64,000 nt of DNA, taken from assembly GCF_030816965.1 (NCBI RefSeq), contig NZ_JAUSYQ010000002.1, positions 5,491,501-5,555,500 of the forward strand, read 5' to 3'. Of the stretch, positions 2,990-19,533 are shown one piece after another. Position numbers and translations under genes: made by a program. The notes under the pieces were generated by a model that ran no database searches, was not told the origin of the DNA, and worked only from the letters and a program-made list of their open reading frames with translations. Within the stretch, counting starts at the first letter, position 1. The number at the start of each line of letters is the position of its first letter. The DNA is from Streptomyces canus (lineage in GTDB: Bacteria > Actinomycetota > Actinomycetes > Streptomycetales > Streptomycetaceae).

Positions 2990-5104
2990 GTGTTTGAGCA
3001 ACTGGAAAACATGGACGAGGTCGCGGCAATGCTTTTGGTATTGCTGTGGGGAATAGCCGGTTACCGTGTCGGCCGACTGGTTTTCCGGCCCAGTCGGCAG
3101 AAACTCCGGAAAAGCGCACGACGTTCTCTGCGATTCATCTGGTTCTGTGCGCTCGCCGTGGCCGGAAGGCTGGCGGTCGCCGGTTACATGACCAGCTACG
3201 GCTGGGACTACGGTTCGAACCGGATGATCCTCGCGGTGCCGCTGCTGGTGCTGCCGTTCGCGGCGACACTGGCCCTGTCCGTGCCCGCCCTGCGTGCGAT
3301 CGCTGCCGCGGAGCCGGGCGATGCGGACGCGCCGACCACACCGGGACAGCGGTCGGCGGCTGCCGCTCCCCGGCTGGTGATCCCGGTTCAGACGACCGCC
3401 ATCGGCGCCCTCCTGGGGCTGTACGTGGTGTTCGTCGCCCGCCCGGTCCCTCCGTACACCAGGTACCTGATCGGCCTGTGGGGCGTGCTGGCGGTCGGTA
3501 CCGCGGTGCTGTCCCTCCGGCAGCGGATGCGGCAGGCCGCTCAGGGCGCGGGCGCCGCCCGGCGCCCGCGCCTCTGGGCCCGCATGGTCCGCTTCGTGGG
3601 CACGGTCGCCGCGGTCGCTCTGGGCCTGAGCGGCACCCTGAGCTACGCGCAGTCGGCCAGCCGCCTGCCCGGAAAGCTGGCGATGGACAGTTCTCCGATG
3701 GACTGGGGCGGCGGGCCGAAGGCCATGGCCGGCATGGCGATGGACCACTCGGGCAAGTCCGTACGGACCACGAGCGTCACGAACCTGACCGGCGACATCA
3801 GCGGAACGCCTGACGAGAGCTTCACCCTGACCGCCAAGGACTCCACGATCCGCCTGGCCTCCGGCAAGATCATCCACGGGATGGCTTTCAACGGGCGGAC
3901 CCCAGGGCCGGAACTGCGGGTCCACGAGGGCGACCTGGTCCAGGTGAAGCTCGTCAATCACCTGGCAGGTCGGCGGGCCGGTGTCACCCTGCACTGGCAC
4001 GGGCTGGACGTACCCAACGCCGAGGACGGCGTCGCGGGCGTGACCCAGAACGCCGTACAGCCCGGACACACCTTCACCTACCGGTTCCGGCCCCACCAGG
4101 TGGGCACCTTCTGGTACCACTCGCACCAGGACTCCTTCGAGGAGGTCACCCACGGTCTGTACGGCGCGCTGGTCGTCCTGCCCAGGAGCGGCCGGCCCCA
4201 GGGCCTCGACATGACCGTGCTCGCCCACCTGTGGCCGACCGCCAACGGGGTGCGTACCGCAGCGCTCGGCACGTCGGACCGTCTCCAGCGGCGCACCGTG
4301 GCCCCCGGCACCCGGGTGCGGCTGCGACTGGTCAACACCAGCAGCCTGGAGTCCGGTGAGACGGAGCCGACGTCGTTCACGCTGACCGGTGCCCCGTTCA
4401 CGGTGAGCGCCATCGACGGCACGGATCTCAACAAGCCCACCCCTCTGCGCCAGGCCCGGCTCCTGATCGGTGAAGGCGGCCGTGACGACCTCACCTTCAC
4501 GATGCCGGACCACCCGGTCAGGCTCTCGGACCTCCAGGGCTCAGCCTCCGACCTGGTCCTGCGGCCCGGCGGCACGGGCGACGGCACACGGGGCTCCATG
4601 AACTGGCCGGCCTTCGATCCAGCGGCGTACGGCAGCCCCGCGTCCACCCCGTTCGGGCCGCACAGCCACTTCGACCGGAAGTTCAAGCTGATCATCGACG
4701 ACCGTCCCGGCTACTACGACGGCAAGTTCTACTTCCTGCCCACCATCAACGGAAAGTCGTTCCCCCACATCCCGATGCTCATGGTGCGCAAGGGAGATCT
4801 GGTCGAGCAGACCTTCGTCAACCGCGGGCATGCCGGTCACCCGATGCACCTGCACGGCCACCACGCCCTGGTGCTGGCCCACAACGGCAAACCGGTCACG
4901 GGAAGCCCCTGGTGGACCGACACCCTGTACATCCAGCCGGGCGAGAGTTACCAGATCGCCTTCCGGGCCGACAATCCGGGCATCTGGATGGACCACTGCC
5001 ACAACCTGGAGCACGCCACCATGGGCATGGTGATGCACCTGGCCTACGAGGGTGTCAGCTCCCCGTTCGACATCGGCCGCGACACCGGCAACAAGCCCGA
5101 GTAA
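2990..5104 (+). CDS. Membrane-anchored multicopper oxidase
   Basis: A 704-residue fusion. Residues 1-220 contain about six hydrophobic segments in two clusters, and residues 270-704 form a cupredoxin-type multicopper oxidase. All copper motifs are present: HWHG (about 335), FWYHSHQ (about 374), HPMHLHGHH (about 617) and the T1/T3 motif HCHNLEHATMGM (about 669), which holds the T1 Cys and the axial Met. A Met/His-rich patch (MAGMAMDHS, about 245) follows the last membrane segment. Such enzymes oxidise phenols, Cu(I) or other metals at the outer face of the membrane. The GTG start at 2990 has only a weak ribosome site (GGGAGA). Next to an aromatic polyketide cluster, oxidative phenol chemistry is possible; copper detoxification is the alternative. 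Confidence 0.9.
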   Translation: MFEQLENMDEVAAMLLVLLWGIAGYRVGRLVFRPSRQKLRKSARRSLRFIWFCALAVAGRLAVAGYMTSYGWDYGSNRMILAVPLLVLPFAATLALSVPALRAIAAAEPGDADAPTTPGQRSAAAAPRLVIPVQTTAIGALLGLYVVFVARPVPPYTRYLIGLWGVLAVGTAVLSLRQRMRQAAQGAGAARRPRLWARMVRFVGTVAAVALGLSGTLSYAQSASRLPGKLAMDSSPMDWGGGPKAMAGMAMDHSGKSVRTTSVTNLTGDISGTPDESFTLTAKDSTIRLASGKIIHGMAFNGRTPGPELRVHEGDLVQVKLVNHLAGRRAGVTLHWHGLDVPNAEDGVAGVTQNAVQPGHTFTYRFRPHQVGTFWYHSHQDSFEEVTHGLYGALVVLPRSGRPQGLDMTVLAHLWPTANGVRTAALGTSDRLQRRTVAPGTRVRLRLVNTSSLESGETEPTSFTLTGAPFTVSAIDGTDLNKPTPLRQARLLIGEGGRDDLTFTMPDHPVRLSDLQGSASDLVLRPGGTGDGTRGSMNWPAFDPAAYGSPASTPFGPHSHFDRKFKLIIDDRPGYYDGKFYFLPTINGKSFPHIPMLMVRKGDLVEQTFVNRGHAGHPMHLHGHHALVLAHNGKPVTGSPWWTDTLYIQPGESYQIAFRADNPGIWMDHCHNLEHATMGMVMHLAYEGVSSPFDIGRDTGNKPE

Positions 5105-5216: not shown

Positions 5217-7055
5217 TCAGGCGGCGACGCCGACAGGGAGGTCCTTTTGGACCAGACTCTCCCAGTAGGTCGCCAGAGAGCCGGCAAAGCGGGCCAGAAG
5301 ACCAGAGAAACGATAGTGCGCCGCACCGTCCGGGCCGGCGAGTTCCACCTCGACCAGGTGGGCCTGCACCAGCGCATCGAGGAGGTCCTCGGTGGTTCTC
5401 GCGTCCACCTGCAGTTCCCGGGAGGCGCGCTCATCGTTGAAGGGAGCGGTGCCGAGTCGGCCCAGCACGCGGAAGGCTGCCCGTTCGGGTTCGCTCAACG
5501 ACAGATAGCACCGGGTGTAGCGGGCCGCCAGGTCGATGTCGCCGACACGAAGCTCTTCCAGCCCGCTGACGGGATCGGACGCGCGGCGCAGCAGCTTGCG
5601 GATACTCCAGTGGCGGGCGGACACCAGCCGTTCCCCGGCCGCCCGCAGGGCCAGCGGCAGGCCACCGCAGAACCGCACCAGTTCGTCGGCCGCGTCCGGT
5701 TCCCGGGCAATGCGTTCCCGGCCGACGATGGCGGTGAGCAGTTCCAGTCCCTCCGCGGGGTCCAGGGGACCGAGTTCGAGCCGCTGTGCGCTCGCCAGTC
5801 CCGGAAGGCAGTATTCGCCGGTGACGAGAACGGCCCATTCGGGGCCGCTGGGCATGAGGGGTCTGAGCCGTCCCAGGTCGCTCGCGCCCTCCAGGACCAG
5901 CAGGCCCCCGCGGTCCGCCGCCCAGGAGCGGAACATGCTGCTGCGCTCCTCCTCGCCGACGGGGATGTCGGCAGGGTCGAACCCGACGACGCGAAGGAAC
6001 TCTCCGAGGATCTCCGCGGGTTCGGCGTCCCGGCCGCCCTCACGCACCAGACTGGCGTAGAGCTGACCGTCGGGGAATCTGTGGCGCGCCCGGTGGGCAG
6101 CCCGTCTGGCCAGGGCTCTCTTGCCGGCTCCCGGGGCGCCGACGACGAGAACGGTGCGCGGGGCGGTGTCGCCCGGGGTCAAGAGGCGGTCGAGGGCGCC
6201 GAGTTCGGCCTCGCGGCCGACGAAGTCGCCGATGTCGGGCGGCAGGGTGGCGGGAACCGAGGCGGTCACCGTGACCTGTTCTCTGACCGGCTCCGCTTCG
6301 CGCCGTTGCAGCACGGGGGCGTCCATGAGGATGTCCTGGTGTATCCGCTGCAGATTCGGCGACGGCACGATCCCGAGTTCGTCGCGCAGGGCGTGGCGCA
6401 CATCGTGGTACACCTGCAGCGCTGCCGATCGCCGGTCGCAGCGGTACAGAGCCAGCATCAGCTTCGCGTTCAGCTCTTCGTGCATGGGGTACTCGATGAC
6501 CAACTCGCGGAGCTCGCCTACGAGTTCGCCGTGGCGGCCGAGCCGCAGATCGGCGTCGATCCGCAGGAGGAGGGCACGCAGGAGGTTCTCCTCCAGCCGC
6601 GCGGCCTGTGCTTCCAGCAACGGACCTCTTCGCACGCCGGTGAGCACACCGCCACGCCGCAGCACCAGCGCCTCGTGCAGGAGCTGTGAGGCGCGCGTCA
6701 TGTCGCCGGCCTCGAACGCCTGGCGGCCGGAGAGGGACAGCCGCTCGAACTCGCACAGGTCGAGAGCTTCCGGAGCGATATCGGCCCGATAGCCGATCGG
6801 TGTAGTGACCAGGCAGTCGGTGTTCTCGTTACCGTGCAGCAGCTTTCTCAGCTGGTAGATGTAGGTGTGCACGGTGGCCGTGTAACCGTTCGGCGGATCG
6901 TCCGACCAGATCTCCTCGATCAGTGCCGGTGTCGGTACCACGCGATTGTGACTGGCCAGCAGCAATGCGAGCGCCGCGCGCAGTTTCGGCGCGGTGGGCG
7001 TGATGTCGCGCCCCTCATGGAGAATCTCGAATGGCCCCAGCAATCTGAAGTTCAT
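5217..7055 (-). CDS. AfsR/SARP-family transcriptional activator with NB-ARC-like domain
   Basis: A 612-residue regulator. The N terminus (MNFRLLGPFEIL, residues 1-95) is an OmpR-like winged helix, followed by a bacterial transcriptional activation domain (about 97-245, ending SAALQVYHDVRHALRDELGI). A P-loop ATPase region follows, with the FVGREAEL lead-in, the Walker A-like GAPGAGKR at about 306-313 and LLVLEGAS as Walker B. The Walker A Lys312 is followed by Arg instead of Ser/Thr, so nucleotide binding may be impaired. I chose ATG 7055 (GGGGGACGGG upstream) because the SARP fold begins there; the open frame extends to 7142. SARP proteins activate polyketide operons, and this one lies convergent to the oxidase and upstream-facing relative to nothing else, so the minus-strand cluster is the likely target. 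Confidence 0.9.
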   Translation of the reverse strand: MNFRLLGPFEILHEGRDITPTAPKLRAALALLLASHNRVVPTPALIEEIWSDDPPNGYTATVHTYIYQLRKLLHGNENTDCLVTTPIGYRADIAPEALDLCEFERLSLSGRQAFEAGDMTRASQLLHEALVLRRGGVLTGVRRGPLLEAQAARLEENLLRALLLRIDADLRLGRHGELVGELRELVIEYPMHEELNAKLMLALYRCDRRSAALQVYHDVRHALRDELGIVPSPNLQRIHQDILMDAPVLQRREAEPVREQVTVTASVPATLPPDIGDFVGREAELGALDRLLTPGDTAPRTVLVVGAPGAGKRALARRAAHRARHRFPDGQLYASLVREGGRDAEPAEILGEFLRVVGFDPADIPVGEEERSSMFRSWAADRGGLLVLEGASDLGRLRPLMPSGPEWAVLVTGEYCLPGLASAQRLELGPLDPAEGLELLTAIVGRERIAREPDAADELVRFCGGLPLALRAAGERLVSARHWSIRKLLRRASDPVSGLEELRVGDIDLAARYTRCYLSLSEPERAAFRVLGRLGTAPFNDERASRELQVDARTTEDLLDALVQAHLVEVELAGPDGAAHYRFSGLLARFAGSLATYWESLVQKDLPVGVAA

Positions 7056-7105
7056 CAGCAAAACCCGTCCCCCGATTCGTTTGCCATGGGTGATACGTGC
7101 GGTCG

Positions 7106-7157
7106 TCAACTTCCAGTTACTTGAAAGTTGACCTTCTATCACCTGGTAGAAGCTATC
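7106..7157. promoter_or_regulatory. Two short inverted repeats upstream of the SARP gene
   Basis: TCAACTT ... AAGTTGA and CTTCTA ... TAGAAG lie back to back in the 231-nt interval between the SARP start and the phosphotransferase-like stop. The interval is AT-richer than its surroundings, and this is the only plausible promoter region for the activator. Exact -35/-10 elements are not evident. Confidence 0.35.
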
Positions 7158-7286: not shown

Positions 7287-9761
7287 TCAGCGGGAGACCT
7301 GCACAGTTCCCGCCGTACCGTCGACGGTGACGATCTGACCGTCACGGACCAGACTGGTGCCGTTGCCGGTCGCGAGGACCGCCGGCACCCGGTACTCCCT
7401 CGCGATGATCGCCGGGTGTGACAGCAGCCCACCGGTGTCCGTGACGAGGGCCCCGACGCTGGTGAAGAGAACGGACCACTGGGCCGTCGTCTCCGGGCAG
7501 ACCAGGACGTCTCCGGGTCGCAGCTTGCCGAACTCCGCCTCGCTCCTGATCACCCGGGCGGGTCCGGTGAACCGCCCCGCGGAGCCCGCGATTCCGCGGA
7601 TGACTCCCGTCTGCCGGTCGATACCGCCGTGGGCGCCCTCCCCGGAGACCTCCCGCCAGGACCACAGCCCGATGTCCAGCACGTGCCGGGCCTCCTGGGG
7701 GAGCTTGGCCATCCACCGGGGGTTCGGCCGGTCCGGGCCGACCGGATCGCCGTAGGACGCCGGTCCGGGGCTGGTCTCGGCCCAGGCGTACTCGCCCCGG
7801 CGCCGCGCGACGAGCGGACGCCTGTCGTCGCCGTCCCTCAGTGCGGCGAGGGCCTCGTCACGCTCCAGGAAGAAGACGTGATCGGCGGCGTCGAGCTGGC
7901 CGCGTCCGGCGAGCCTGCGGCCCACCTCCAGCACCGCGTAGCGCAGCACCGCGCCGGCGACCTGCGTGTAGTACGCGCTGTCGTCGCGGAGGGGATAGGC
8001 CCGCTGGGCGAGGGCCAGCACCCTGTCGAACCGCCGAAGAGCATCCGGGTCGCCCTCGAGCACCGCCCTCGCCGCGACGGTCGCCTCCTCCCGCTGCCGC
8101 GTCAGCGCCGCGACCTCGCTCTCCGGGTCGAAACACCGCGTGAGCTGATCGCGGACGAGGGCCAGCAGCAGGTGCGGCCGCTCCGCCATGGTCGGCGAGG
8201 TGAGGTCCATCTCCAGCGTGCGGTGTGCGTACTCACGCCGGTACGCGTCGAACCCCCGGGCGAAGTCCGTATCCACTGACGCGAGCTGATCGACGGTGCC
8301 CTCGTCTGCTTCCATGAGCACCTTGGCCAGCCCGGGGGTGTCCCGCGCGGTGTGCGTCAACGCGGCCAGGGCGTACGTGGGCTCGGTCGTCTTGCCGGGC
8401 AGCCCGGTCAGCAGCTTCAGAGTCTCGGACGTGTTCTGGCCCAGCAGATCCCGGCAGACCACGCCGAGCTCGCCGAGGACGAAGGTGCCGGCGCCGCCGA
8501 TCCGGTAGTGCACGTCCGAGGCGTGGTGGCGCGTCTCTTCGGTCTCCCTCAGATGGCCGGCCAGCGACTGGTCGTCGAGGCCCTGCCGGTCGGTGTCCCG
8601 CAGGGCGCCGAGCCGCGCGGCGAGCGCCGGCTGCCACTCCTCGTACCAACGGTCGAAGACCCTGGCGGGCTCGCCCGCACGAACCTCGGCGACCACGCGG
8701 GCCAGCCGGTCCTTGACCGCCTCCGCTCCCGAGACGGACACGTAGCGCGCGTACACCCAGCCGCCGATCTCGCGGAACTGGATGCACTCCCCGAGCCCGA
8801 AGCGGAACAGCCGGCTGGTCGCCTCGTCCAGCGTGGCCAGGACCATGGAACGGAACATCGGGGACAGGGGACGCGAGGAGTACGTCGACCGGGCCCAGTA
8901 CCCGTCGGGGACGTCGACCGGGATCGGCACCGGCTCCACGTGGTCGGGCAGCGCGGTGATGGGCCGCGCCTGCAGCAGCCACAGCCGCTCGCCGTCGAAG
9001 GCCCACTCGATGTCCTGCGGCGCGCCGAAATGCGCGTGAACTCTGCGGGCCAGGCGCGCCACTTCCCGTGCCTGCTCGGCATCGATGGCACCCCGCTCGC
9101 CCGAGGTGTGGGTGGCGGTGTCCCCGGAGACCGCCCACTCGTCCGGGGTCTCCCCGCCGTCGACGAGCCGGTCGCCGAGTCCCGGCACCGCGTTGATCCG
9201 TACCTCGTCGGAGCCCGTGACGGGGTTGACACTGAAGGCCACGCCCGCCGCGGTGGCGTCGACCATGCGCTGGACGAGCACCGGCATGCCACCGGCCGCC
9301 CCGCCGTCCTGCCGCCCCGCGTACTGGCGCACCCGCTCGGCGAACGCCGAGGCCCAGCAGGTGCGCACGGCATCGGCGAGCCCGGCGGAGCCCCGCACGT
9401 TCAGCACCGTCTGGTACTGGCCCGCGTAGGACGCTCCGGCGGTGTCCTCGGCGACGCCGGAGGAGCGGACCGCCAGCGCCTGCCCCGCCATGGCGTCGGC
9501 GATGCGGTACAGATCGGCGCGCACCCGCTGCGGCAGTTCGGCTCTGGTCACCCTCTCGGCCGTCACCTCGTCCCTGCTGTCGTCCAGACCGGCGTGGAGC
9601 AGGGTCTCCTCCAGCGCCGCGGCGGGCATGACGTATCCCTCGGGCACGGTGAAGCCCGCGTTCAGAAGCTCGCCCAGGACGGCTGCCTTGCGTCCGACGC
9701 GGTCCGCGTCGGGCAGGCCCACGGTGTGCAGGGACTGTCCGTAGGTGCTCGCGGTGGTCAT
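7287..9761 (-). CDS. PEP-synthase / rifampin-phosphotransferase-like enzyme
   Basis: An 824-residue three-domain enzyme. Residues 1-285 form the ATP-grasp PPDK_N domain (GRKAAVLGELLNAGFTVPEGYV, LAVRSSGVAEDTAGASYAGQY, IEWAFDGERLWLLQARPI). A long variable middle domain spans about 300-730. The C-terminal swivelling domain has TGGLLSHPAIIARE with the phosphohistidine at about His782, 42 residues from the end. The size and order match rifampin phosphotransferases, which move the beta-phosphate of ATP to an antibiotic via the His. Housekeeping PEP synthase is unlikely because the PEP/pyruvate barrel domain is absent. It closes the polyketide operon, so phosphorylation of the product or an intermediate (tailoring or self-protection) is the inference. 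Confidence 0.82.
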   Translation of the reverse strand: MTTASTYGQSLHTVGLPDADRVGRKAAVLGELLNAGFTVPEGYVMPAAALEETLLHAGLDDSRDEVTAERVTRAELPQRVRADLYRIADAMAGQALAVRSSGVAEDTAGASYAGQYQTVLNVRGSAGLADAVRTCWASAFAERVRQYAGRQDGGAAGGMPVLVQRMVDATAAGVAFSVNPVTGSDEVRINAVPGLGDRLVDGGETPDEWAVSGDTATHTSGERGAIDAEQAREVARLARRVHAHFGAPQDIEWAFDGERLWLLQARPITALPDHVEPVPIPVDVPDGYWARSTYSSRPLSPMFRSMVLATLDEATSRLFRFGLGECIQFREIGGWVYARYVSVSGAEAVKDRLARVVAEVRAGEPARVFDRWYEEWQPALAARLGALRDTDRQGLDDQSLAGHLRETEETRHHASDVHYRIGGAGTFVLGELGVVCRDLLGQNTSETLKLLTGLPGKTTEPTYALAALTHTARDTPGLAKVLMEADEGTVDQLASVDTDFARGFDAYRREYAHRTLEMDLTSPTMAERPHLLLALVRDQLTRCFDPESEVAALTRQREEATVAARAVLEGDPDALRRFDRVLALAQRAYPLRDDSAYYTQVAGAVLRYAVLEVGRRLAGRGQLDAADHVFFLERDEALAALRDGDDRRPLVARRRGEYAWAETSPGPASYGDPVGPDRPNPRWMAKLPQEARHVLDIGLWSWREVSGEGAHGGIDRQTGVIRGIAGSAGRFTGPARVIRSEAEFGKLRPGDVLVCPETTAQWSVLFTSVGALVTDTGGLLSHPAIIAREYRVPAVLATGNGTSLVRDGQIVTVDGTAGTVQVSR

Positions 9762-9809
9762 CTCATCTCTTTCGAAGACGTGGGGGGAATGGAAGGCGTC
9801 CTCACCGCG

Positions 9810-10187
9810 TCAGGCGGTCTGGGCCTGTTCGGCCGAGAACTGGGAGACACAGCGCATCAGGCTGTTGATGAAGTGCGCCTTGAACTTCTCCGGCGTCGAG
9901 GTGTCCCGCGGCGTGGCGAGGAACGGCTGGAGCTTCTCCTCCAGCTGGTGCACGCCGGGCTGGGTGCCCATGTGCCGGCCGACCGCCGCGAAGTCGCCTT
10001 CGTAGTGGATGAAGCGCACCAGCGTCGCGTCCTTGATGAACACGCCGGTGCCGAGCAGACGGCCGACCTCGTTTCCGTCCTCGTCGCGCAGCACGGGGGT
10101 GTCCACGCGCTGGAAGCCGGCGAAGATCTCCGTGATCTCCTCCTCGTTGCCGGGCTTCACGTCGTAGGTGATGGCGGCGTAAGGCAT
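9810..10187 (-). CDS. SchA/CurD-like domain protein
   Basis: A 125-residue soluble protein beginning MPYAAITYDVKPGNEEEI, with GTGVFIKDATLVRFIHYEGDF and FINSLMRCVSQF near the end. This is the SchA/CurD-like family, found almost only in type II polyketide clusters (curamycin, spore pigment). The biochemical role is not established; the ferredoxin-like N-terminal half resembles ABM monooxygenases. It lies between a ketoreductase (70 nt upstream) and the phosphotransferase-like gene (48 nt downstream). Confidence 0.85.
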   Translation of the reverse strand: MPYAAITYDVKPGNEEEITEIFAGFQRVDTPVLRDEDGNEVGRLLGTGVFIKDATLVRFIHYEGDFAAVGRHMGTQPGVHQLEEKLQPFLATPRDTSTPEKFKAHFINSLMRCVSQFSAEQAQTA

Positions 10188-10257
10188 GGTTGTCGTCCTT
10201 CCAAAGGGGTTCGGGGGCGGCGGCTACGGGGCGGAAGCCCCCTAGGGGGTGGACCCC

Positions 10258-10995
10258 CTAGATGCCACCGTCGACATTGAGGGTCGCGCCGGTGACGTAA
10301 CGGGCCAGGTCACTGGCCAGGTACAGCACGGCACCTGCTACGTCCTCCGGCGTGCCGAGTCGGCCGAGCGCCGTCATCGAGCGCACCTTGGCGAGCAGCG
10401 GGGGCGGCAGTTCCTCCGCCGGGTCGGTCGCGATCACGCCGGGGGCCACGGTGTTGAAGCGCAGCCCGCGCGGGCCGAACTCCTTGCACAGCGAGCGGGT
10501 CAGGCCGATGACACCTGCCTTGGCCGCCGTGTAGTGGGCGCGGCCGGCGAAGCCGCGCAGGCTCACCGCGGCACCGACGTTGACCACCGAGGCGGCCTCG
10601 TCGAGCAGTGGCAGGAACGCCTGCGTCACCAGGAATACGGTGGTCAGGTCACCGTCGAGCACGCGGTGCCACTCCTCGGGGGCGAGCTGCTCGATGCGTT
10701 CGTGTCCGTCCACGCCGGCGTTGTTCACCAGGACGTCCACGCCGCCCAGGGCGGTGCGTGCCGCGTCGACGAGCTCGGCGACCTCGGCCGGGTCGGTGAG
10801 GTCGGCCCGTACGACGGCGTGCGCGCCGCCGGTTTCCTTGAGCTGCCGGGCCAGTTCGGCCGCGGCGGAACCGTCCGCGCGGTGCACGGCGAGGACGCGG
10901 GCACCGGCCTGGGCGAACGCCAGGCTGATGGTGCGCCCGATGCCCCGGGTGCCGCCCGTCACCACGATGCGCTTGCCTGCGACATCGAGTCGCAT
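10258..10995 (-). CDS. Short-chain dehydrogenase (ketoreductase-like) lacking the catalytic Ser
   Basis: A 245-residue classical SDR with TGGTRGIG for the cofactor, NNAG at the active-site helix and YTAAK as catalytic Tyr/Lys. Aligning with FabG by fixed spacing (13 residues before the Tyr) puts Ala where the catalytic Ser normally sits (GAAVSLRGFAGRAHY against GSVVGTMG...ANY). The nearby Ser is three residues further on. The C terminus YVTGATLNVDGGI is complete. ATG 10995 has AAGGAGAC upstream. In pentangular-type clusters SDRs of this class reduce a distal ketone. This copy may be a weak or altered reductase or partner to the second SDR at 11673-12407. Confidence 0.88.
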   Translation of the reverse strand: MRLDVAGKRIVVTGGTRGIGRTISLAFAQAGARVLAVHRADGSAAAELARQLKETGGAHAVVRADLTDPAEVAELVDAARTALGGVDVLVNNAGVDGHERIEQLAPEEWHRVLDGDLTTVFLVTQAFLPLLDEAASVVNVGAAVSLRGFAGRAHYTAAKAGVIGLTRSLCKEFGPRGLRFNTVAPGVIATDPAEELPPPLLAKVRSMTALGRLGTPEDVAGAVLYLASDLARYVTGATLNVDGGI

Positions 10996-11029
10996 GGATG
11001 TCTCCTTGGGTCCTTGTGGCCGCGGCGGC

Positions 11030-11335
11030 TCAGTAGCTCGCGACGACCTGGTAGATGCCGAACGGGCGGCCCTTGCTCGCGTCCTGGAAGGGGCGCAGCG
11101 GGGCGGTGGTGTCGCGGTGGGAGGAGCCTTGCTCCCAGCCTTCGAACGCCTCACGGCTCTCCCACTCGCTCATCACGAGGAAGGCGCCGTCGTCGAGGGT
11201 GGAGCGCAGCAGTTCGTTGCCCAGCAGGCCGGGCGTGCCCCGCAGGGCCTCACTGATCCGGCGGTACGCGGCGGAGACGGCGTCCGGGTCGGACTCCGGC
11301 GCCGCCGCGTACACCAGTACGCGCAGCCTGCTCAT
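11030..11335 (-). CDS. Antibiotic biosynthesis monooxygenase (ABM)-like protein
   Basis: A 101-residue single-domain protein with the ABM dimeric alpha-beta barrel pattern: LRVLVYAAAPE, AYRRISEALRGTPGLLGNELLRS and FLVMSEWESREAFEGWEQG. Such cofactor-independent oxygenases oxidise aromatic rings to quinones. The ATG overlaps the stop of the preceding ABM-like gene (ATGA). Two adjacent ABM proteins may form a hetero-oligomer or act at different ring positions. Confidence 0.85.
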   Translation of the reverse strand: MSRLRVLVYAAAPESDPDAVSAAYRRISEALRGTPGLLGNELLRSTLDDGAFLVMSEWESREAFEGWEQGSSHRDTTAPLRPFQDASKGRPFGIYQVVASY

Positions 11336-11670
11336 GAACCCGCGGCGGTGAGGGAGGCCGCACCGGTCATGGCGTACCGCACGTGCATGGTCGTCATCGA
11401 GCCGGACAGCCGGTACGGGTGCAGCTTCGAGCGGTGCTCCAGATGCTCCTCGCTCTGCTCGTACGTGCGGAAGCTGTCCTCGTCGGTCCAGTCGCTGACG
11501 ATGTAGTAGATGTCGGGTTCCTCGGCACTGGCCGACAGCCACTGACCGAGGTTGGCGGGCCGGCCGGTGATCACCGAGGCACCGTCGTACCAGGCGCGCT
11601 CGAAGTCGGCGCCACGACCGGGGTGGACCTGCATCCGCAGGGTGACGCGGAACGCGTTCGGGCAGGTCAT
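11332..11670 (-). CDS. Antibiotic biosynthesis monooxygenase (ABM)-like protein
   Basis: A 112-residue protein (MTCPNAFRVTLRMQVHPGRG, YIVSDWTDEDSFRTYEQSEEH) of the same ferredoxin-like ABM superfamily as its downstream neighbour. Its start lies 2 nt after the SDR stop and its stop overlaps the next ATG by 4 nt, so all three genes are tightly coupled. The longer open frame to 12435 is a shadow of the SDR. Quinone formation on the polyketide is inferred from family and context. Confidence 0.85.
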   Translation of the reverse strand: MTCPNAFRVTLRMQVHPGRGADFERAWYDGASVITGRPANLGQWLSASAEEPDIYYIVSDWTDEDSFRTYEQSEEHLEHRSKLHPYRLSGSMTTMHVRYAMTGAASLTAAGS

Positions 11671-11672
11671 GG

Positions 11673-12407
11673 TCAGATACCTCCGTCGACGTGCAGGGTC
11701 TCGCCGGTGACGTAGGCGGACAGGGTGCTGGCGAGGAAGAGCACGGCGCCGGCGACCTCCTCGGGCCTGCCGAGGCGGCCGAGCGCGGTGAGCTGCCGGT
11801 AGCGGGCGCGGGTTTCCTCGGGCAGCGGCTCGTTCTCCGGCTCGATGACGCCCGGAGCGACGACGTTGACCCGGATGCCGCGGGGGCCGAGTTCCTTGGC
11901 GAGGGAGCGCGTCAGTCCGACCAGGCCCGCCTTCGACGCCGTGTAGTGGGCGCGCAGCGGAATTCCCACCATCGCCGACCGGGAGCCGACGGCGATGACG
12001 GAGGAGCCCTCGCCCAGCAGCGGCAGGCTTTTCTGGACCAGCAGGTAGGTGCCGGTGAGGTTGGTGTCGAGAACGCGGTGCCAGTCCTCGGGGGTGAGCT
12101 TGTCGAACGGGACGTGTGTGATCGCTCCGGCGTTGGCGACGACCGCGTCCAGCGAGCCGAAGCGCGCCTCGGCCTCGCCGACGAGCGCCTCGATGTCCTC
12201 GCTCCTGCTGACGTCCGCGCGCATGACGTGGTGGTCGGGGCCGATCTCCTTCAGCTCCCGCTGGAGGCTCTGCGCGGCCTCGTCGTCGTGGCGGGAACAG
12301 GTCAGCAGCCGGGCGCCGGAACGGGCGAGCGCGAGGGCGATGCCGCGGCCGATGCCCCGGGTGCCGCCGGTCAGCAGTACGGTCCTGCCGTCGAGTTGTA
12401 TGGTCAT
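11673..12407 (-). CDS. Short-chain dehydrogenase / ketoreductase
   Basis: A 244-residue classical SDR. It shows TGGTRGIG (cofactor loop), NAGAITH, the catalytic Ser in AVGSRSAMVG, YTASK, and the terminal YVTGETLHVDGGI. Unlike the paralogue at 10258-10995, the full Ser-Tyr-Lys triad is present. It probably reduces a polyketide ketone. The upstream 70-nt gap contains copies of a GATGTGA motif also found before the ACP gene. Confidence 0.9.
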   Translation of the reverse strand: MTIQLDGRTVLLTGGTRGIGRGIALALARSGARLLTCSRHDDEAAQSLQRELKEIGPDHHVMRADVSRSEDIEALVGEAEARFGSLDAVVANAGAITHVPFDKLTPEDWHRVLDTNLTGTYLLVQKSLPLLGEGSSVIAVGSRSAMVGIPLRAHYTASKAGLVGLTRSLAKELGPRGIRVNVVAPGVIEPENEPLPEETRARYRQLTALGRLGRPEEVAGAVLFLASTLSAYVTGETLHVDGGI

Positions 12408-12477
12408 GGGTGAATTGCTCCTGACGTGATGTCACATCGGGCGTGAGAAAGGTGATGTGAGATGCGACCGGCGGAGG

Positions 12478-13320
<843 letters not shown>

Positions 13321-13333
<13 letters not shown>

Positions 13334-14538
13334 AGCACGAGGGCGGAGTTGAAGCCGCCGAATCCCCGTGCCAGGACCAGCGCGGTCCTCAAAGGGGCCT
13401 CGCGTGGCGTGCCGACGACGAGATCGAGGCGGTACGCGGCTGCCGGGTCGACCCCGGCTGTCGGCGGGATCACGCCGTCGCGGAGGGCCAGCAGTGCGGT
13501 CGCGGCATCGAGCGAGCCGCCGCCGGCGAAGAGCCGGCCGGTCATGGTCTTGGGTGCCGTGACCGGCACGCCGTGCTCGCCGAAGAGCCCGGCGATGGCC
13601 TCTGCCTCGGCCCGGTCGGCCTCCGGCACTCCGGCGGCGTCCGCGAAGACCACATCGATGTCCCCCGGCTCGCACCCGGCGCGGGCCAGGGCGAGCTCGG
13701 CGGCACGGCGCAGGGCCGGCGGCCGGCCCGAGCCGGGCGGCGGGTCGAAGGTCGCCGCGTAGCCGACGACCCGGCCGTAGAGGAAGACGCCCGGGCGGGC
13801 GCGGGCACTGTCCTCGTCCTCCACGACGAGGATCGCGCCGCCCTCGCCAGGCACAAACCCGGCCGCGTCGATGTCGAAGGGCACGTAGGCGCGGGTGGGG
13901 TCGGTGGCGGTGCTCAGCAGCTTGCTGGTCTGCAGGCACACCAGCGCGTACGGCGACAGCGGCGCCTCCGTGCCACCGGTGAGCGCGAGCTTCGTGCCGT
14001 CCCGGATCACCCGCAGGGCCTGGCCGATCGCGTCGAGACCGCCCGCCTGCTCGCTGACCACGACGCCGCACGGGCCGCGCATACCGTGACGAATGGAGAG
14101 CTGGCCGGTCGTCGCCGCGTAGAACCAGGCGATCGACTGGAACGTCGTCACATGGTCCGGGCCGAGCCGCCACAGTCGGCCCAGCTCACCCTGGCCGAAC
14201 TCGTTGCCGCCGCTGGAACTCGCGGTCACCACGGCCATGTCGTACTCGCCCAGACCGGTCTCGTCGAGCGGCAGGGCCGACGCGTCGGACAGTGCGGTCT
14301 CGGCCGCGACCAGCGCGAACTGCGTCCAGCGGTCAGTCTGCACGACGAGCCGCCTGGGCAGGTGGGCGAGCGGTTCGAAGCCGGTCACCTCGCCGGCCAG
14401 CGACGTCGGATACGCCGAGCCGTCGAAGCGGCTGATCGGGCCGATGCCGCTGACCCCGGCCAGCGTGTTGCGCCAGTACTCATCGACGCCGACTCCGTTC
14501 GGGGCCACGATCCCGAGGCCCGTCACCACGGCACTCAT
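13321..14538 (-). CDS. Type II PKS chain-length factor (KS-beta)
   Basis: A 405-residue ketosynthase homologue. The active-site Cys is replaced by Gln in [12 protein letters not shown] (about residue 162), which defines chain-length factors. The C terminus [20 protein letters not shown] is typical. It forms a heterodimer with KS-alpha and fixes the polyketide length; Gln catalyses decarboxylation of the malonyl starter. Its ATG overlaps the KS-alpha stop by 4 nt. Confidence 0.95.
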
Positions 14539-15803
14539 GCCACCCTCCCGGGGCGGGCCAGCAGCATCGCGGTCTGGAACCCGCCGAATCCGCTGCCGAC
14601 GGTCAGGACCACGTCCAGCTCTGCCTCGCGGGCGATCCGGGGCACGTAGTCGAGGTCGCATTCCGGGTCGCTGGTTCTCAGGTTCGCCGTCGGCGGCACG
14701 ACCCCGTGTTCGATGGCCAGCGCACACGCGGCGATCTCGATGGAGCCGATGGCGCCGAGCGAGTGGCCCACCATCGACTTGATGGAGCTGACCGGCACCT
14801 GGTGGGCCCGCTCCCCGAGGCTGCGCTTGAACGCGGCCGTCTCGTGCCGGTCGTTCTGCCGGGTTCCGGAGCCGTGCGCGTTGATGTAGTCGATGTCCTC
14901 GGGGCGCACTCCGGCACGGCGCATGGCCACCGTGATGGCCTCCGCCATCTCCCGCCCGTCCGGCTTGAGGCCGGTCATGTGGTACGCGTTGCTCCGGCCC
15001 GCGAACCCGACGACCTCGGCGTAGACGTGGGCGCCGCGGGCCTTCGCCGCCTCGCGTTCCTCCAGGACGAACACGGCGCTTCCTTCGCCCATGACGAAGC
15101 CGTCGCGGTGGGCGTCGAAGGGGCGTGAGGCGTGCTCGGGGTCGGCGTTGTTCGGCGAGGTCGCCTTGATCGCGTCGAAGCTGGCTGCCGAGATCGGGGA
15201 GATCGGTGCGTCGGTGGCGCCTGCCAGCATGACCTCCGCCGAGCCCTCCTCGATCAGACCGGCGGCGTAACTCACCGCGTCCAGACCGGAGGTGCATCCC
15301 GTGGACACCGTGGTCACCGGGCCCTCGGCCCCCACCGTCCAGGCGACCTCCGCCGAGAACGAGCTGGGGACCAGGTATCCGTACAACTGGGGCACCGCGT
15401 AGGCGTGGTCGACGATCCAGTCGCGTCCGCTGTTGCTCACGACCGCGTATTCGTTTTCCAAGCCAATCGTGGCGCCGACCGCGCTTCCTATGGAAACGCC
15501 GACCGTATCGGAATCGACCGTGTCGAATTCCAGCCCGCTGTCCGCCACTGCCTCACGAGCACAGACCACGGCGAATTGTGCGGCCCGGTCCATACGGCGG
15601 GCCTCCTGCGGGGTAAGCCCTGCCGCAGCCGTGTCGAAGTCGCACTCGGCGGCAATCCTGGAGCGAAACGGAGTGGCGTCGAAAACGCTGATTGCATGGG
15701 TCGCCGTACGCCCGGACGTCAGCAGCTCCCAGAATTCCTTGCGGCCGATGCCACCGGGCGCCACCACCCCGATACCGGTGATGACCGCACGCCGCCGCGG
15801 CAT
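14535..15803 (-). CDS. Type II PKS ketosynthase (KS-alpha)
   Basis: A 422-residue beta-ketoacyl synthase with catalytic Cys in [14 protein letters not shown] (about residue 169), the first His in [15 protein letters not shown] and the second in [13 protein letters not shown]. It condenses malonyl-ACP units with KS-beta. ATG 15803 overlaps the cupin TGA (TGATG); the GTG one codon upstream is an alternative. The order cyclase, cupin, KS-alpha, KS-beta, ACP, aromatase matches spore-pigment and pentangular polyphenol clusters. Confidence 0.96.
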
Positions 15804-16228
15804 CACGCCGCTCCGACGTTGATCTGCGGCGCGGCCGGTTCGACGAGCGGCTCGGTGTCCACGTGGCCCAGTTCGGGCCGGGGAGCCAGCGGGCAGAGGT
15901 GGAAGACCGCCTCGGCGGGCTCATCGCCGCCGTTCTCCACCCGGTGCCGCACGTCCTTGGGGACCAGCAGCCCTTCGCCGGCGCCGACGGTGACGGGCTC
16001 TCCGTCCAGCCGTACGACGACGGTGCCCCTCGTCACGTAGAGGAACTCCTCGGAGTACGGATGGTAGTGCTCGGCGACGAACTCGCCCGCGGCCAGGGTG
16101 AGCAGGCCAAGAAAGCCGGTCGTCGCGCCGGCGGTCTTCGGGCCGAGCACCACCCGGATCTCGCCGCCGCGGCGGCGATTGACCTCCACGTCAGCCGCGG
16201 CGACCTTGGTGTGCTGGGTGACAGGCAC
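15803..16228 (-). CDS. Cupin-domain polyketide cyclase-like protein
   Basis: A 141-residue single cupin with [16 protein letters not shown] (metal-binding His/Glu motif 1) and [10 protein letters not shown] (motif 2). Homologues of this type (WhiE-ORFII family) sit next to KS-alpha in pigment and pentangular clusters and are thought to help cyclisation. I chose GTG 16228 because GGAGAGGAG lies 6 nt upstream and homologues start near there. An ATG at 16291 in the same frame overlaps the preceding gene and is the alternative. Confidence 0.88.
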
Positions 16229-16283
16229 TGCTGACTCCTCTCCGGGCTGGTGCCCTGTCCGAGGGCACGAGACGGTCTGTGGC

Positions 16284-16613
16284 TCAGGCATCGGCGGACT
16301 GCCACATGTAGAACCGCGCGGCCATGGCGTCGGCCGGCCGGCGCCAGGTCTGGGGGTCGTACGGCTCGATGAAGTGCTCCAGCTCGGAATTGACCTGCTG
16401 GAACAGCGGGTGCCGGCGGATCTCCGGCGTGAGCCCGCCGAGCGACTCCCGCGATTCGATCAGGTGGAAATAGAGATCGTGAAAGCGGAAGAGTGAACGG
16501 CGTTTCACCCCGACCAGTCCGGGGAGTTCAGTACGGTCCGAATCGGCGAATATCCTGGCGACCTCCTGTGCATCGCCGGGTGCCATCCTGGCAACGATGA
16601 GTGTTTGATTCAC
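16284..16613 (-). CDS. TcmI-family polyketide cyclase
   Basis: A 109-residue ferredoxin-like protein ([71 protein letters not shown]). This is the polyketide_cyc family of TcmI and WhiE-ORFVII, which close later rings of tetracenomycin-type chains. It is the first gene of the operon. Confidence 0.93.
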
Positions 16614-16712: not shown

Positions 16713-17453
16713 TCAGACGGGACTTCGGACGGCGGCGCGGTCGGAGGCCGAGTCTGCGTCGCGTGGGGCCCCATGTATCGACGCAGGCGGGTCGAGGAGG
16801 CCGTCGAGTACGGCGTCCAGCACGTCCCCCGGCCCCCGCACGGAACCGCTCGACGACGTACCCCGCCAGAAGACGACGCTCATCACGAGCCAGCCCAAGA
16901 GCAGTTCCGACACGAAGTCCTGGTCAAGGCCACTGCGGAACCGGCCCACCGCCATGCCTTCCCCGACGAGCGAGCCGACAACGACACGGAGGGGTGCGGT
17001 CACTCGCTCGTCGAACGCCGTCTCGAGACCGAGCGGGGCGTCGCGCCGCACCTCGGGTCCGGCCCCGAAGAGCCACAGCCAGGTCACCAGACGAGGATGC
17101 GCACGCAGCACCTCGGCCATCAGAACCAGTCCGTCACGTATCCCCGTACCGCCCAGTACGCCGGCCGCCCCGTCACGCGGCGGCAGCAGGTCCGTCACCC
17201 GCGGTATGGCGCCGGCCAGCAACGCCTCCTTGCCGGCCCAGCGCCGGTAGATGGTGGACTTGCCGACACCCGCGGTGGCCGCGATGCGCTCCACCGTCAG
17301 GTAGGCAGGTCCCATGCCCTGTGCCATCAACAGGTCGACGGCCGCGAAGACAGCTCGCTCGACCTGCTCGCTGCGGGGACGGCCGGGCCGCGCGGCCGGT
17401 GTCCACGACTGGTCACCGGCCTGCGGACGTCGGGTACGAGCGGAGGCGTTCAC
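16713..17453 (-). CDS. TetR-family transcriptional regulator
   Basis: A 246-residue repressor. The helix-turn-helix lies at about residues 45-75 (LTVERIAATAGVGKSTIYRRWAGKEALL), followed by an all-helical ligand domain (GLVLMAEVLRAHPRLVTWLWLFGAGPEV, LLLGWLVMSVVFW). The GTG at 17453 overlaps the TGA of the small membrane protein gene by 4 nt. It is transcribed towards the polyketide operon and ends 100 nt before it, so it may be cotranscribed and probably controls the cluster or the adjacent membrane protein. Confidence 0.9.
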   Translation of the reverse strand: MNASARTRRPQAGDQSWTPAARPGRPRSEQVERAVFAAVDLLMAQGMGPAYLTVERIAATAGVGKSTIYRRWAGKEALLAGAIPRVTDLLPPRDGAAGVLGGTGIRDGLVLMAEVLRAHPRLVTWLWLFGAGPEVRRDAPLGLETAFDERVTAPLRVVVGSLVGEGMAVGRFRSGLDQDFVSELLLGWLVMSVVFWRGTSSSGSVRGPGDVLDAVLDGLLDPPASIHGAPRDADSASDRAAVRSPV

Positions 17454-17707
17454 GACTGGGTCTGCGGGCCGGCGGCCCGGGAGCGTCCGACCGCGAACCA
17501 CAGAATGGCGGCCAGCAGGGGGAAGAAGAAGATGAACGCGATCCAGGCAACCCTGGTCCGGGTCGCGGCGGGCGCCTTCACCACTCCGGCGACAGCGGCC
17601 ACGACAAGCGCCGTGTACACGATGCCGACGATCGCCAGAAGACCGATCAGCAGCGAGGCCCACGGCTCTCCCAGGTTTGCGAACCCTCCGGCGGCAATGA
17701 CAGTCAT
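17450..17707 (-). CDS. Small PLDc_N-type membrane protein
   Basis: An 85-residue protein with two membrane segments (about 17-41 and 54-72: LLIGLLAIVGIVYTALVVAAV and VAWIAFIFFFPLLAAILWFAVGR). The second segment with FFPLLAAILWFAVGR is the phospholipase_D-nuclease N-terminal (PLDc_N) pattern, a membrane domain without the nuclease. ATG 17707 has GAGAAGGG upstream. It is coupled to the TetR gene. Confidence 0.8.
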   Translation of the reverse strand: MTVIAAGGFANLGEPWASLLIGLLAIVGIVYTALVVAAVAGVVKAPAATRTRVAWIAFIFFFPLLAAILWFAVGRSRAAGPQTQS

Positions 17708-18333
17708 GCTGTTCCCTTCTCCCGTCGCCGCGCTGCTGCACGACGACAACTTGTCTTCGATCCGAGAAGGTATGGGCGCACTGAGCACCGGACATCCGCT
17801 CAGCCGCGACGGGCGGTTACGTCAGTTTTCGTACGTGGCGAGCCCTCGACGCCTGTGGGCGGGCAAAGGTTCCCCCGCCGCAGAAGCCGGCCGCCGTCAT
17901 CAGCTCCGGCTACATCGCCCTGGAGATGGCCGAGGTGCTCACTACCCGTGGCCTCAGCGTCACATGAGGCGCGGCCGCGCACGGGATCATGGGGGAGGTC
18001 GCGCGGATGGCCCTGTGCGCTTGGCGGAACACGCGATCCGTCCCCACGTCCTCACATGGCAGCGGGCAGGGAACGCCGGAGCCTGTGCCCCGGGTACCGG
18101 TCGATGCGCGGACGCCCGACTCATTCATGTCGGACGCCTGGTCGTCCCGAGCGGGGTACGCGAAGCGGGACGAGGTGCCTGCGGACAACACGACGACCCG
18201 GTGTCCGGCCGGCGCCACGCACCAGCGCGTGCACCAGCAGACCGCCGTACTTCAACGCTCTGACCAGGCAAAACAGCACCCCGTCCGGTACCGATCTCAC
18301 CCGAACCTCATTCGGGACGAAGAGAGGCGTGAA
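17708..18333. other. Decayed intergenic stretch
   Basis: 626 nt with no intact gene on either strand. Apart from the oxidoreductase remnant at 17821-17967, several short protein-like runs occur in changing frames, which suggests a degraded gene or an old rearrangement boundary between the polyketide region and the core chromosome. Confidence 0.6.
17821..17967 (+). pseudogene. Remnant of an FAD/NAD(P)-dependent disulfide oxidoreductase
   Basis: A 48-codon open stretch with the NAD-binding Rossmann segment PAAVISSGYIALEMAEVL followed by TTRGLSVT, then a stop. Intact CoA-disulfide-reductase-like enzymes read V(I/V)GGGYIGLEMAE...RGLxVT here, preceded by an R-T-x-x-A-L-D-A stretch that is also recognisable (RTWRALDA). 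Both flanking domains are missing. Confidence 0.6.
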
Positions 18334-19533
18334 TCAGGACGCGAGGCGTTGCAGGCGGCTGGTGGCCTCGGTGAGAACGTCGTCCCTCTTGCAGAAGGTG
18401 AAGCGGACCTGGCTGCGGCCGGCGTTTGGGTCGTCGTAGAAGACGGAGTTGGGGACAGCGACGACGCCGCAGCGTTCGGGCAGCGAGCGGCAGAAAGCGT
18501 AGGCGTCCTTCTCGCCGAAGGGGGCGATGTCGGTGGTGATGAAGTAAGTGCCCTGGGGCTGGTAGACCTCGAACCCGGCTGCGCGCAGGCCGTCGCCGAG
18601 CAGGTCCCGCTTGCGCTGGAGGTCGGCGCGGAAGCTGTCGAAGTACGTGTCCGGCAGACGCAGCGCCTCGGCGATCGCGTACTGGAAGGGGCCCGCGCTG
18701 ACGTAGGTCAGGTACTGCTTGGCCGTCCGGACGGCGGCGACGAGCGGGCCGTCCGCCGTGATCCAGCCGACCTTCCAGCCCGTGAACGAGAACGTCTTGC
18801 CGGCCGAGCCGATGGTGACCGTGCGCTCCCGCATCCCCGGGAAGGTGGCCAGCGGTAGGTGCTCGGCTTCGTCGAACACCAGGTGCTCGTACACCTCGTC
18901 CGTGACCACCAGCAGATCCCGCTCCACGGCCAGTTCGGCGATCGCCGTCAGCTCCTCACGGGTGAGGACGGTGCCGGTGGGGTTGTGCGGGGTGTTGATG
19001 AGCAGGAGCCGGGTCCGGTCGGTCACCGCGGCGCGCAGTTCGTCGAGGTCGAGACGGAAGCGGGCGCCCCCCTCGAAGTGCGGCCGCAGGGTGACCGGGA
19101 CCCTGGTCCCGCCCGCCATCGCGATGCAGGCCGCGTAGGAGTCGTAGTACGGCTCCAGGGCGACGACCTCGTCACCGGGCTCGACCAGGGCGAGCAGCGC
19201 GGCGGCGATCGCCTCCGTGGCGCCCGCGGTGACCAGTACCTCGGTGTCCGGGTCGTACGACAGCCCGTACCGCCGCTCCTGATGTGCCGCGATCGCAGTA
19301 CGCAGCTCCGGGACGCCCGGGCCCGGCGGGTACTGGTTGCCCCGCCCGTCCCGCAGCGCCCGCACGGCCGCCTCCCTGACCTCCTCGGGGCCGTCCGTGT
19401 CGGGGAAGCCCTGGCCCAGGTTGATCGATCCGGTCTGCAGGGCCAGGGCGGACATCTCGGCGAAGATCGTCGTCCCGAACTCGGCGAGACGGCGGTTGAG
19501 CAGGGGGCGCGCACTGGAGGTCATGCCGCTCAT
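18334..19533 (-). CDS. PLP-dependent class I aminotransferase
   Basis: A 399-residue fold-type I aminotransferase. Features are INLGQGFPDTDGP near the N terminus, NTPHNPTGTVLTREEL, VVTDEVYEHLVFD and the PLP lysine in TIGSAGKTFSFTGWKVGW. This pattern is shared by kynurenine/glutamine aminotransferases and N-succinyldiaminopimelate aminotransferase (DapC-like), and the substrate cannot be fixed from sequence. Two in-frame ATGs (19533, 19524) are possible. Confidence 0.92.
   Translation of the reverse strand: MSGMTSSARPLLNRRLAEFGTTIFAEMSALALQTGSINLGQGFPDTDGPEEVREAAVRALRDGRGNQYPPGPGVPELRTAIAAHQERRYGLSYDPDTEVLVTAGATEAIAAALLALVEPGDEVVALEPYYDSYAACIAMAGGTRVPVTLRPHFEGGARFRLDLDELRAAVTDRTRLLLINTPHNPTGTVLTREELTAIAELAVERDLLVVTDEVYEHLVFDEAEHLPLATFPGMRERTVTIGSAGKTFSFTGWKVGWITADGPLVAAVRTAKQYLTYVSAGPFQYAIAEALRLPDTYFDSFRADLQRKRDLLGDGLRAAGFEVYQPQGTYFITTDIAPFGEKDAYAFCRSLPERCGVVAVPNSVFYDDPNAGRSQVRFTFCKRDDVLTEATSRLQRLAS

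Follow-up and report, generated by a model that had tools for sequence, protein, structure and literature searches.

A pentangular-type type II polyketide cluster of Streptomyces canus with a rifampin phosphotransferase-like enzyme

Rifampin phosphotransferase (RPH) is an enzyme by which some bacteria inactivate rifampin. Here we describe a type II polyketide synthase (PKS) cluster of Streptomyces canus whose core operon ends in a gene for an RPH-like phosphotransferase. The window, meaning the whole stretch of 64,000 nucleotides that was analysed (contig NZ_JAUSYQ010000002.1, positions 5,491,501 to 5,555,500; G000:C2:5491501-5555500), lies within a 10.66-Mb genome. The core operon is on the minus strand and comprises 12 genes, from a TcmI-type cyclase gene (16284-16613) to the RPH-like, or phosphoenolpyruvate (PEP) synthase-like, gene (7287-9761).

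The closest described clusters make pentangular polyphenols. According to excerpts of PMC4383371, such clusters are recognised by three Tcm-type cyclases, an adjacent pair of ABM proteins and a pentangular ketoreductase. The frankiamicin (fkm) and pradimicin core described there resembles the window in its minimal PKS, ketoreductase and PdmH/PdmI-type ABM pair, whereas the window has many more tailoring genes than fkm, as well as the PEP-like enzyme. The xan, arx and ltm clusters, in the available portion of PMC9127795, share these families, including two small monooxygenases of 149-153 amino acids. Like the window, they combine the order cyclase, cupin, ketosynthase (KS)-alpha, KS-beta, acyl carrier protein (ACP) and aromatase with a small monooxygenase (LtmE), a ketoreductase (LtmF2), an ABM-sized pair (LtmG1/G2), LtmJ, a CurD-like protein, a third ketoreductase, an asparagine synthase and a SARP regulator. 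Unlike the window, the ltm table in that portion has no PEP/RPH-like or multicopper oxidase gene. Conversely, the window cluster showed no recognisable gene for a XanO4-type FAD monooxygenase, P450, glycosyltransferase or carboxylase. Nor did the proteins scanned from the asparagine synthase to the operon include a recognised XanO4-like FAD monooxygenase, and we would therefore not expect a xanthone. The core adds a member to a known class, and its dedicated RPH-like enzyme sets the cluster apart as a variant.

A pentangular-type gene set

All 12 core genes are intact, each being a single open frame with a lone terminal stop. The families named in an earlier sequence-only reading of this DNA are all present on the minus strand. 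The TcmI-type cyclase gene (16284-16613; PF04673, 5.6e-43) overlaps by 8 bp the gene for a TcmJ-type cupin cyclase (15803-16291; PF07883, 1.9e-19), and a single-domain TcmN-type aromatase/cyclase (12478-12942; PF03364/PF10604) completes the set of three cyclases. The minimal PKS is complete. KS-alpha (14535-15803; PF00109/PF02801) has the Cys-His-His motifs (Cys in GCTS, then HGSGT and GHSLG), and in KS-beta, the chain length factor (CLF; 13321-14538; PF00109/PF02801), Gln replaces Cys within SEQAGG. The nearest PDB match of KS-beta is 1TQY_B, the actinorhodin CLF. The ACP (12945-13199; PF00550, 2.2e-8) carries Ser40 in YDSL.

Two short-chain dehydrogenase/reductases (SDRs) follow. SDR1 (11673-12407) is a ketoreductase in a position like that of LtmF2/XanZ3/Arx21, and its best PDB match is 5THQ (280 bits, 1.4e-82). 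The ketoreductase SDR2 (10258-10995; 235 bits to 5THQ) probably corresponds to LtmF3/XanZ4, judging by family and neighbours. For both, 5THQ, a solved ketoreductase with the PDB title 3-oxoacyl-ACP reductase, is the sole PDB match at 1e-50 or better; we take it to be the pentangular ketoreductase ARX21. Between the two SDR genes lie two adjacent, co-directional ABM genes, one in a PdmH/FkmO1-like position (11332-11670; PF03992, 7.4e-12) and one in a PdmI/FkmO2-like position (11030-11335; PF03992, 1.8e-13), which overlap by 4 bp. Such proteins may serve as fidelity partners rather than oxygenases, as excerpts of PMC6689052 put it. A SchA/CurD protein (9810-10187; PF04486, 4.2e-52), a likely counterpart of LtmD4/XanV, is encoded 48 bp before the PEP-like gene. 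The genes had been described as mostly overlapping, but overlaps account for only 4 of the 11 junctions between the cyclase gene and the PEP-like gene, and gaps of 2-121 bp separate the neighbours at the remaining ones.

Because the cyclase trio, the ABM pair and the ketoreductase match both the set in the PMC4383371 excerpts and the table in the available part of PMC9127795, gene content supports the pentangular-like enzyme set that had been proposed. Every gene of the PMC4383371 set has a counterpart here, with SDR1 assigned as the putative pentangular-type ketoreductase through its match to 5THQ. A tetracenomycin-type or other linear product is most improbable. The three cyclase families are common to tetracenomycin clusters as well, but according to the same excerpts those clusters have just one ABM homologue, a more distant one, and no pentangular ketoreductase. 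The window, in contrast, has two ABM genes side by side and a pentangular-type ketoreductase.

We then compared KS-beta across genomes. At 1e-120, 204 of 295 Streptomyces genomes matched, the own genome included, and its own whiE KS-beta was not among the matches. Identity was 61-65% to the best 30 matches in other Streptomyces (highest listed, 66% in G017), 67% at most in a class-level draw (G601) and at most about 62% in a plasmid collection. Related loci were chosen by hand: 20 regions of 17 genomes came from the 204 genomes with a match, and five further KS-beta loci from nine genomes of the class-level match list. The KS trees have 28 rows, which are the window, the genome's own whiE locus and 26 related loci, some of them on short contigs. 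The sequence-only reading had proposed a phylogeny of both ketosynthases as a check; in these trees, which hold one whiE row and no named reference KS-beta, the window is set apart from the whiE row and stays on a deep, unresolved branch.

The genome has a separate whiE-like locus, L004 (G000:C2:5304457-5324456), with a SchA-like gene, a cupin, a KS pair, an ACP-sized open reading frame (ORF) and an aromatase. A large gene near it resembles an FAD hydroxylase by its sequence start. L004 has no ketoreductase match, and ABM appears there only as a 27% match inside the long SchA-like gene. We therefore rejected a spore pigment (whiE) identity for the window as next to impossible: the SchA/CurD, cupin, KS pair, ACP, aromatase and TcmI families are held in common, but a distinct whiE-like locus lies elsewhere in the same genome, KS-beta is only 50% identical to the one in it, SchA is 125 residues here and 385 there, and the window has ketoreductase genes and an ABM pair. 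The expectation of a product outside the plain spore pigment thus held against the one whiE sequence in the tree.

An RPH-like phosphotransferase in pentangular clusters

The gene at 7287-9761 (minus strand; Pfam PPDK_N and PEP-utilizer) encodes 824 residues arranged as an ATP-grasp domain (about 1-275), an acceptor domain (about 275-715) and a swivel phosphohistidine domain with His782. The C-terminal swivel His lies after the acceptor domain, as it does in RPH (PMC4844700), and the domain order is that of Listeria RPH (5FBS/5HV1). In a profile alignment, five of the seven RPH catalytic residues are identical (K25, R99, T118, R592 and H782, equivalent to K22, R117, T136, R666 and H825); E667 and K670 of RPH are D593 and A596 here. 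The window enzyme differs from RPH in its overall identity of about 20%, its score of 254.4 against a cut-off of 999 for the NCBIfam model RIF_Ptrans_rph, and the place of its gene in a biosynthetic cluster.

The predicted structure points the same way. The acceptor domain has the rifampin-binding-domain fold, and its only clear solved relatives are RPH. RPH also leads the Foldseek list for the whole enzyme, whereas the whole-enzyme Z list is led by a PEP synthase, through the ATP-grasp part. For that part, HpeI (9GOJ), a phosphohistidine enzyme of the same superfamily, ranks high in structure searches. Another member, phenylphosphate synthase of Thauera, phosphorylates phenol (PMC7500099, in excerpt). 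Both of these differ from the window enzyme in their split subunits and catabolic role.

Close relatives of the enzyme are rare. A search of 294 other Streptomyces at 1e-80 matched it in one genome, and so did a search at 1e-100 of 371, a sample that overlaps the first. In a class-level sample of 394 genomes including the own one, two others matched at 1e-90. In the family of G601, four of 200 genomes matched at 1e-100, G601 included; eight genomes of the genus of G792 gave no further match, nor did the plasmid collection at 1e-60. Scanning genome contigs with two peptide patterns yielded five loci, in S. morookaense, a Thermoplasmata metagenome-assembled genome (MAG; 39%) and three further MAGs (28-29%). 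The Thermoplasmata relative is encoded at L060:5888-8326, and a more distant one occurs in G349 (42%). In G792 a further relative (L102, G792:C1:819305) gives a match that skips the middle, acceptor domain.

We compared the window enzyme with five relatives that are 46-50% identical to it, and four of these six enzymes lie in pentangular clusters. In S. morookaense DSM 40503 (contig NZ_JABBXF010000033.1, L061) the gene order is nearly that of the window, ending in SchA/CurD followed directly by the PEP-like gene (46%), with a SARP gene near; the cyclase, ketoreductase and ABM proteins are 57-72% identical to those of the window. That locus differs in having its anthrone-oxygenase genes inside the operon, a glycosyltransferase after the PEP-like gene, FAD hydroxylases, a P450 and a transporter, and no multicopper oxidase or asparagine synthase match in the fetched stretch. 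In G601 the PEP-like gene is about 9 kb from KS-beta; in the stretch fetched there, we did not find the genes for SDR2, SchA and the second anthrone-oxygenase. In G792 the distance to the KS genes is about 19-20 kb. G777 and G821 encode the enzyme with no PKS gene recognised in their fetched stretches (L078, L079). Among 12 other pentangular-type loci (L039, L042, L044-L052 and L085), no PEP-like enzyme was found in the fetched stretch. The sequence-only reading had listed the phosphotransferase-like enzyme as one of several unusual additions, which undersold it, given its homologues in three further pentangular clusters.

In G777 the enzyme gene adjoins an O-methyltransferase gene, and in G821 a neighbour has a like sequence start; a large regulator-like gene stands beside. 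Enzyme and methyltransferase there are possibly a modification or detoxification pair.

In a tree of the enzymes, the four PKS-linked ones form one group with modest support (83/94), split from the genomes' own paralogues at 100/100. A tree of concatenated cyclase, ketoreductase and ABM proteins, built on 16 of 18 loci (the own whiE locus and G017 were dropped, with too many genes missing), groups the four PEP-bearing clusters at 88/93, and the window with S. morookaense at 100/99. When the KS pair was added, this four-cluster group was not recovered but also not rejected (approximately unbiased (AU) test, p = 0.271), and it is absent from the KS-only trees. The window cupin is 64-71% identical to the cupins of the other three PEP-bearing clusters, compared with 53-63% in the other loci compared.

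Possible roles of the RPH-like enzyme

From the roles of homologues, KS-alpha, KS-beta and ACP would build a poly-beta-ketone, presumably primed with acetate, which the TcmN-, cupin- and TcmI-type cyclases, the ABM pair and SDR1 would fold into a five-ring core. SDR2, SchA/CurD, two anthrone-oxygenase-like proteins, the O-methyltransferase and the multicopper oxidase may then reduce, oxidise or methylate this core. The asparagine synthase may convert a carboxyl to an amide or lactam, since enzymes of the same class make the lactam in xantholipin and albofungin, according to excerpts of PMC9469721. In the RPH-like enzyme, the ATP-grasp domain would pass the beta-phosphate of ATP to His782 on the swivel domain. 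The latter would then deliver the phosphate to a hydroxyl group on the aromatic scaffold, which would be bound by the acceptor domain.

We consider it probable that the enzyme phosphorylates the aromatic scaffold of this pentangular cluster via His782. Phosphoryl transfer to an aromatic hydroxyl is the best reading because the enzyme shares its fold and most of its catalytic residues with RPH, and because members of the superfamily phosphorylate phenol (PMC7500099, in excerpt). The presence of such an enzyme in the cluster suggests that the phosphate goes onto the compound or a precursor of it. The tailoring genes around the four PEP-like copies vary widely, as far as they were scanned, while the pentangular core is common to all, so the substrate is probably derived from the core. 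The acceptor would thus be the pentangular scaffold and the phosphate, as our first choice, a transient activating or masking group, or else a means of self-protection. We give roughly even odds to a broader proposal: in a subclass of pentangular clusters, spread over at least two actinomycete families, an RPH-type phosphohistidine enzyme would phosphorylate the aromatic polyketide itself, giving either an obligatory phosphorylated intermediate or a phospho-prodrug that protects the producer. The drug-inactivating RPH and this biosynthetic enzyme would then have one acceptor fold between them and probably a shared ancestry.

To our knowledge, no such phosphoryl transfer onto the scaffold is known in type II aromatic polyketide pathways. 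Among the literature matches listed, we found no paper that pairs a phosphotransferase or PEP synthase-like enzyme of this kind with an aromatic polyketide cluster; the "phosphotransferase" in the accessible text of PMC9469721 is a vector neo gene, and PMC6164072, PMC9327801 and PMC12664062 yielded no passage of relevance. If the proposal is true, the enzyme would represent either new activation chemistry for polyphenols or built-in self-protection, and would tie the fold of a clinically important resistance enzyme to a biosynthetic source. The four clusters frame a direct test of scaffold phosphorylation.

Self-resistance, one of the two forms that our explanation covers, can also be set against a biosynthetic step. 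The finished polyphenol would be phosphorylated inside the cell, as rifampin is by RPH, and a phosphatase or exporter would restore it outside. That RPH supplies the only clear solved relatives of the acceptor domain and heads the Foldseek list fits this role, as do the G777 relative, encoded beside an O-methyltransferase and away from any recognised PKS, and the lack of a recognised transporter among the proteins scanned from the asparagine synthase to a TetR-type regulator frame. However, the gene is packed with biosynthetic genes in three clusters (48 bp after SchA/CurD, just before a glycosyltransferase, and abutting a luciferase-like monooxygenase), and no phosphatase was recognised in a scan that covered some of the neighbours. 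We regard self-resistance as a tentative second choice.

A ligase role seems unlikely. RedH and PigC enzymes condense the two halves of prodiginines (excerpts of PMC11188435), and a similar enzyme here would activate a carbonyl or hydroxyl by phosphorylation and join two parts, such as a dimer, an amine or a pyrrole-like partner. RedH and PigC are the second and third NCBIfam matches (278.8 and 259.5 bits), and all six enzymes match RedH; however, these scores are far under the cut-offs of 1350 and 1300, RPH and PEP synthase score similarly, and in the part of the neighbouring genes that was scanned we noticed no partner-making genes shared by the four clusters. Neither RedH nor PigC appears among the VIA-align matches listed, which weighs neither for nor against a ligase. 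An ordinary PEP synthase or pyruvate dikinase lying in the cluster by chance is hardly credible: Pfam domains alone do not tell such enzymes from an RPH-like one and a PEP synthase heads the Z list, but the His is C-terminal rather than central, the score with the PEP synthase model TIGR01418 is 228.6 where the cut-off is 739.75, the gene occurs in four clusters from two families, and the genomes carry separate paralogues.

Flanking genes and a possible insertion

The sequence-only reading had placed the cluster at 7287-16613. That span takes in the core genes and leaves out a SARP-type regulator with an NB-ARC/AAA region (5217-7142, minus strand; PF03704, 1.9e-41). A plus-strand operon lies beyond it. 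A multicopper oxidase (2990-5104; PF07732, 5.5e-37, and PF07731) is membrane-anchored, judging by eye from its N-terminal sequence. A histidine kinase (953-2221; PF07730, 3.8e-18) is followed by a response-regulator gene (2222-2879, end approximate), whose domains were assigned by eye from frame translations rather than by Pfam. The latter is split near 2500, with the receiver in one frame and a LuxR-type helix-turn-helix in another, from either a real frameshift or a sequencing error. Further left are anthrone-oxygenase-like protein 2 (469-927; PF08592, 8.9e-11) and the C-terminal part of an O-methyltransferase (1-452; PF00891), which has 351 amino acids in all (L003:16397-17452) and starts 603 bases left of the window. 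As had been noted, the cluster is cut at this edge: the operon runs on leftwards through the rest of the O-methyltransferase, a second anthrone-oxygenase-like gene and a lipoprotein-like ORF to the asparagine synthase. The lipoprotein-like ORF (L003:14917-15894), 325 residues long, has no Pfam match.

By size and position, the two anthrone-oxygenase-like proteins probably correspond to the 149-153 amino acid small monooxygenases LtmE and LtmJ in the available part of PMC9127795. Of the 12 other pentangular-type loci that we annotated, 11 have at least one anthrone-oxygenase-like match, the exception being L050. Multicopper oxidase matches of 39-45% identity occur in 5 of the 26 related loci (L040 and L042-L045; three of the five cover more than 70% of the query), with weak matches of 26-28% in L046 and L085. 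We therefore rejected both as unusual features; of the additions that had been called unusual, the phosphotransferase-like enzyme is the rare one.

To the right of the operon, a frame holding a TetR-type regulator (16713-17795, minus strand; PF00440, 3.9e-9) lies between the operon and an aminotransferase gene (18334-19533, minus strand), and an insertion may have its right edge at the 3' end of the latter. Over residues 1-290 the window aminotransferase shares 78-95% identity with six orthologues, but over residues 295-399 it shares 60-75%. This drop is partly general, as one orthologue itself shares only 65-77% identity with the other five over that part. More telling, two C-terminal aminotransferase fragments that resemble the genes of other species more closely lie on the far, left side of the cluster. 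The first (L003:9602-9808) shares 78-86% identity with five of the orthologues, 64% with the remaining one and 65% with the window copy; the second (L003:10993-11390) is 69-87% identical to the orthologues and 71% to the window copy. By these comparisons, the cluster may belong to a segment of about 24 kb inserted where the aminotransferase gene ends (3' end). In six relatives, no left-flank biosynthetic gene was found beside the aminotransferase gene, save histidine-kinase-like matches in one, and the proteins scanned included no recognised integrase. On the right side, the genes resemble ordinary chromosome.

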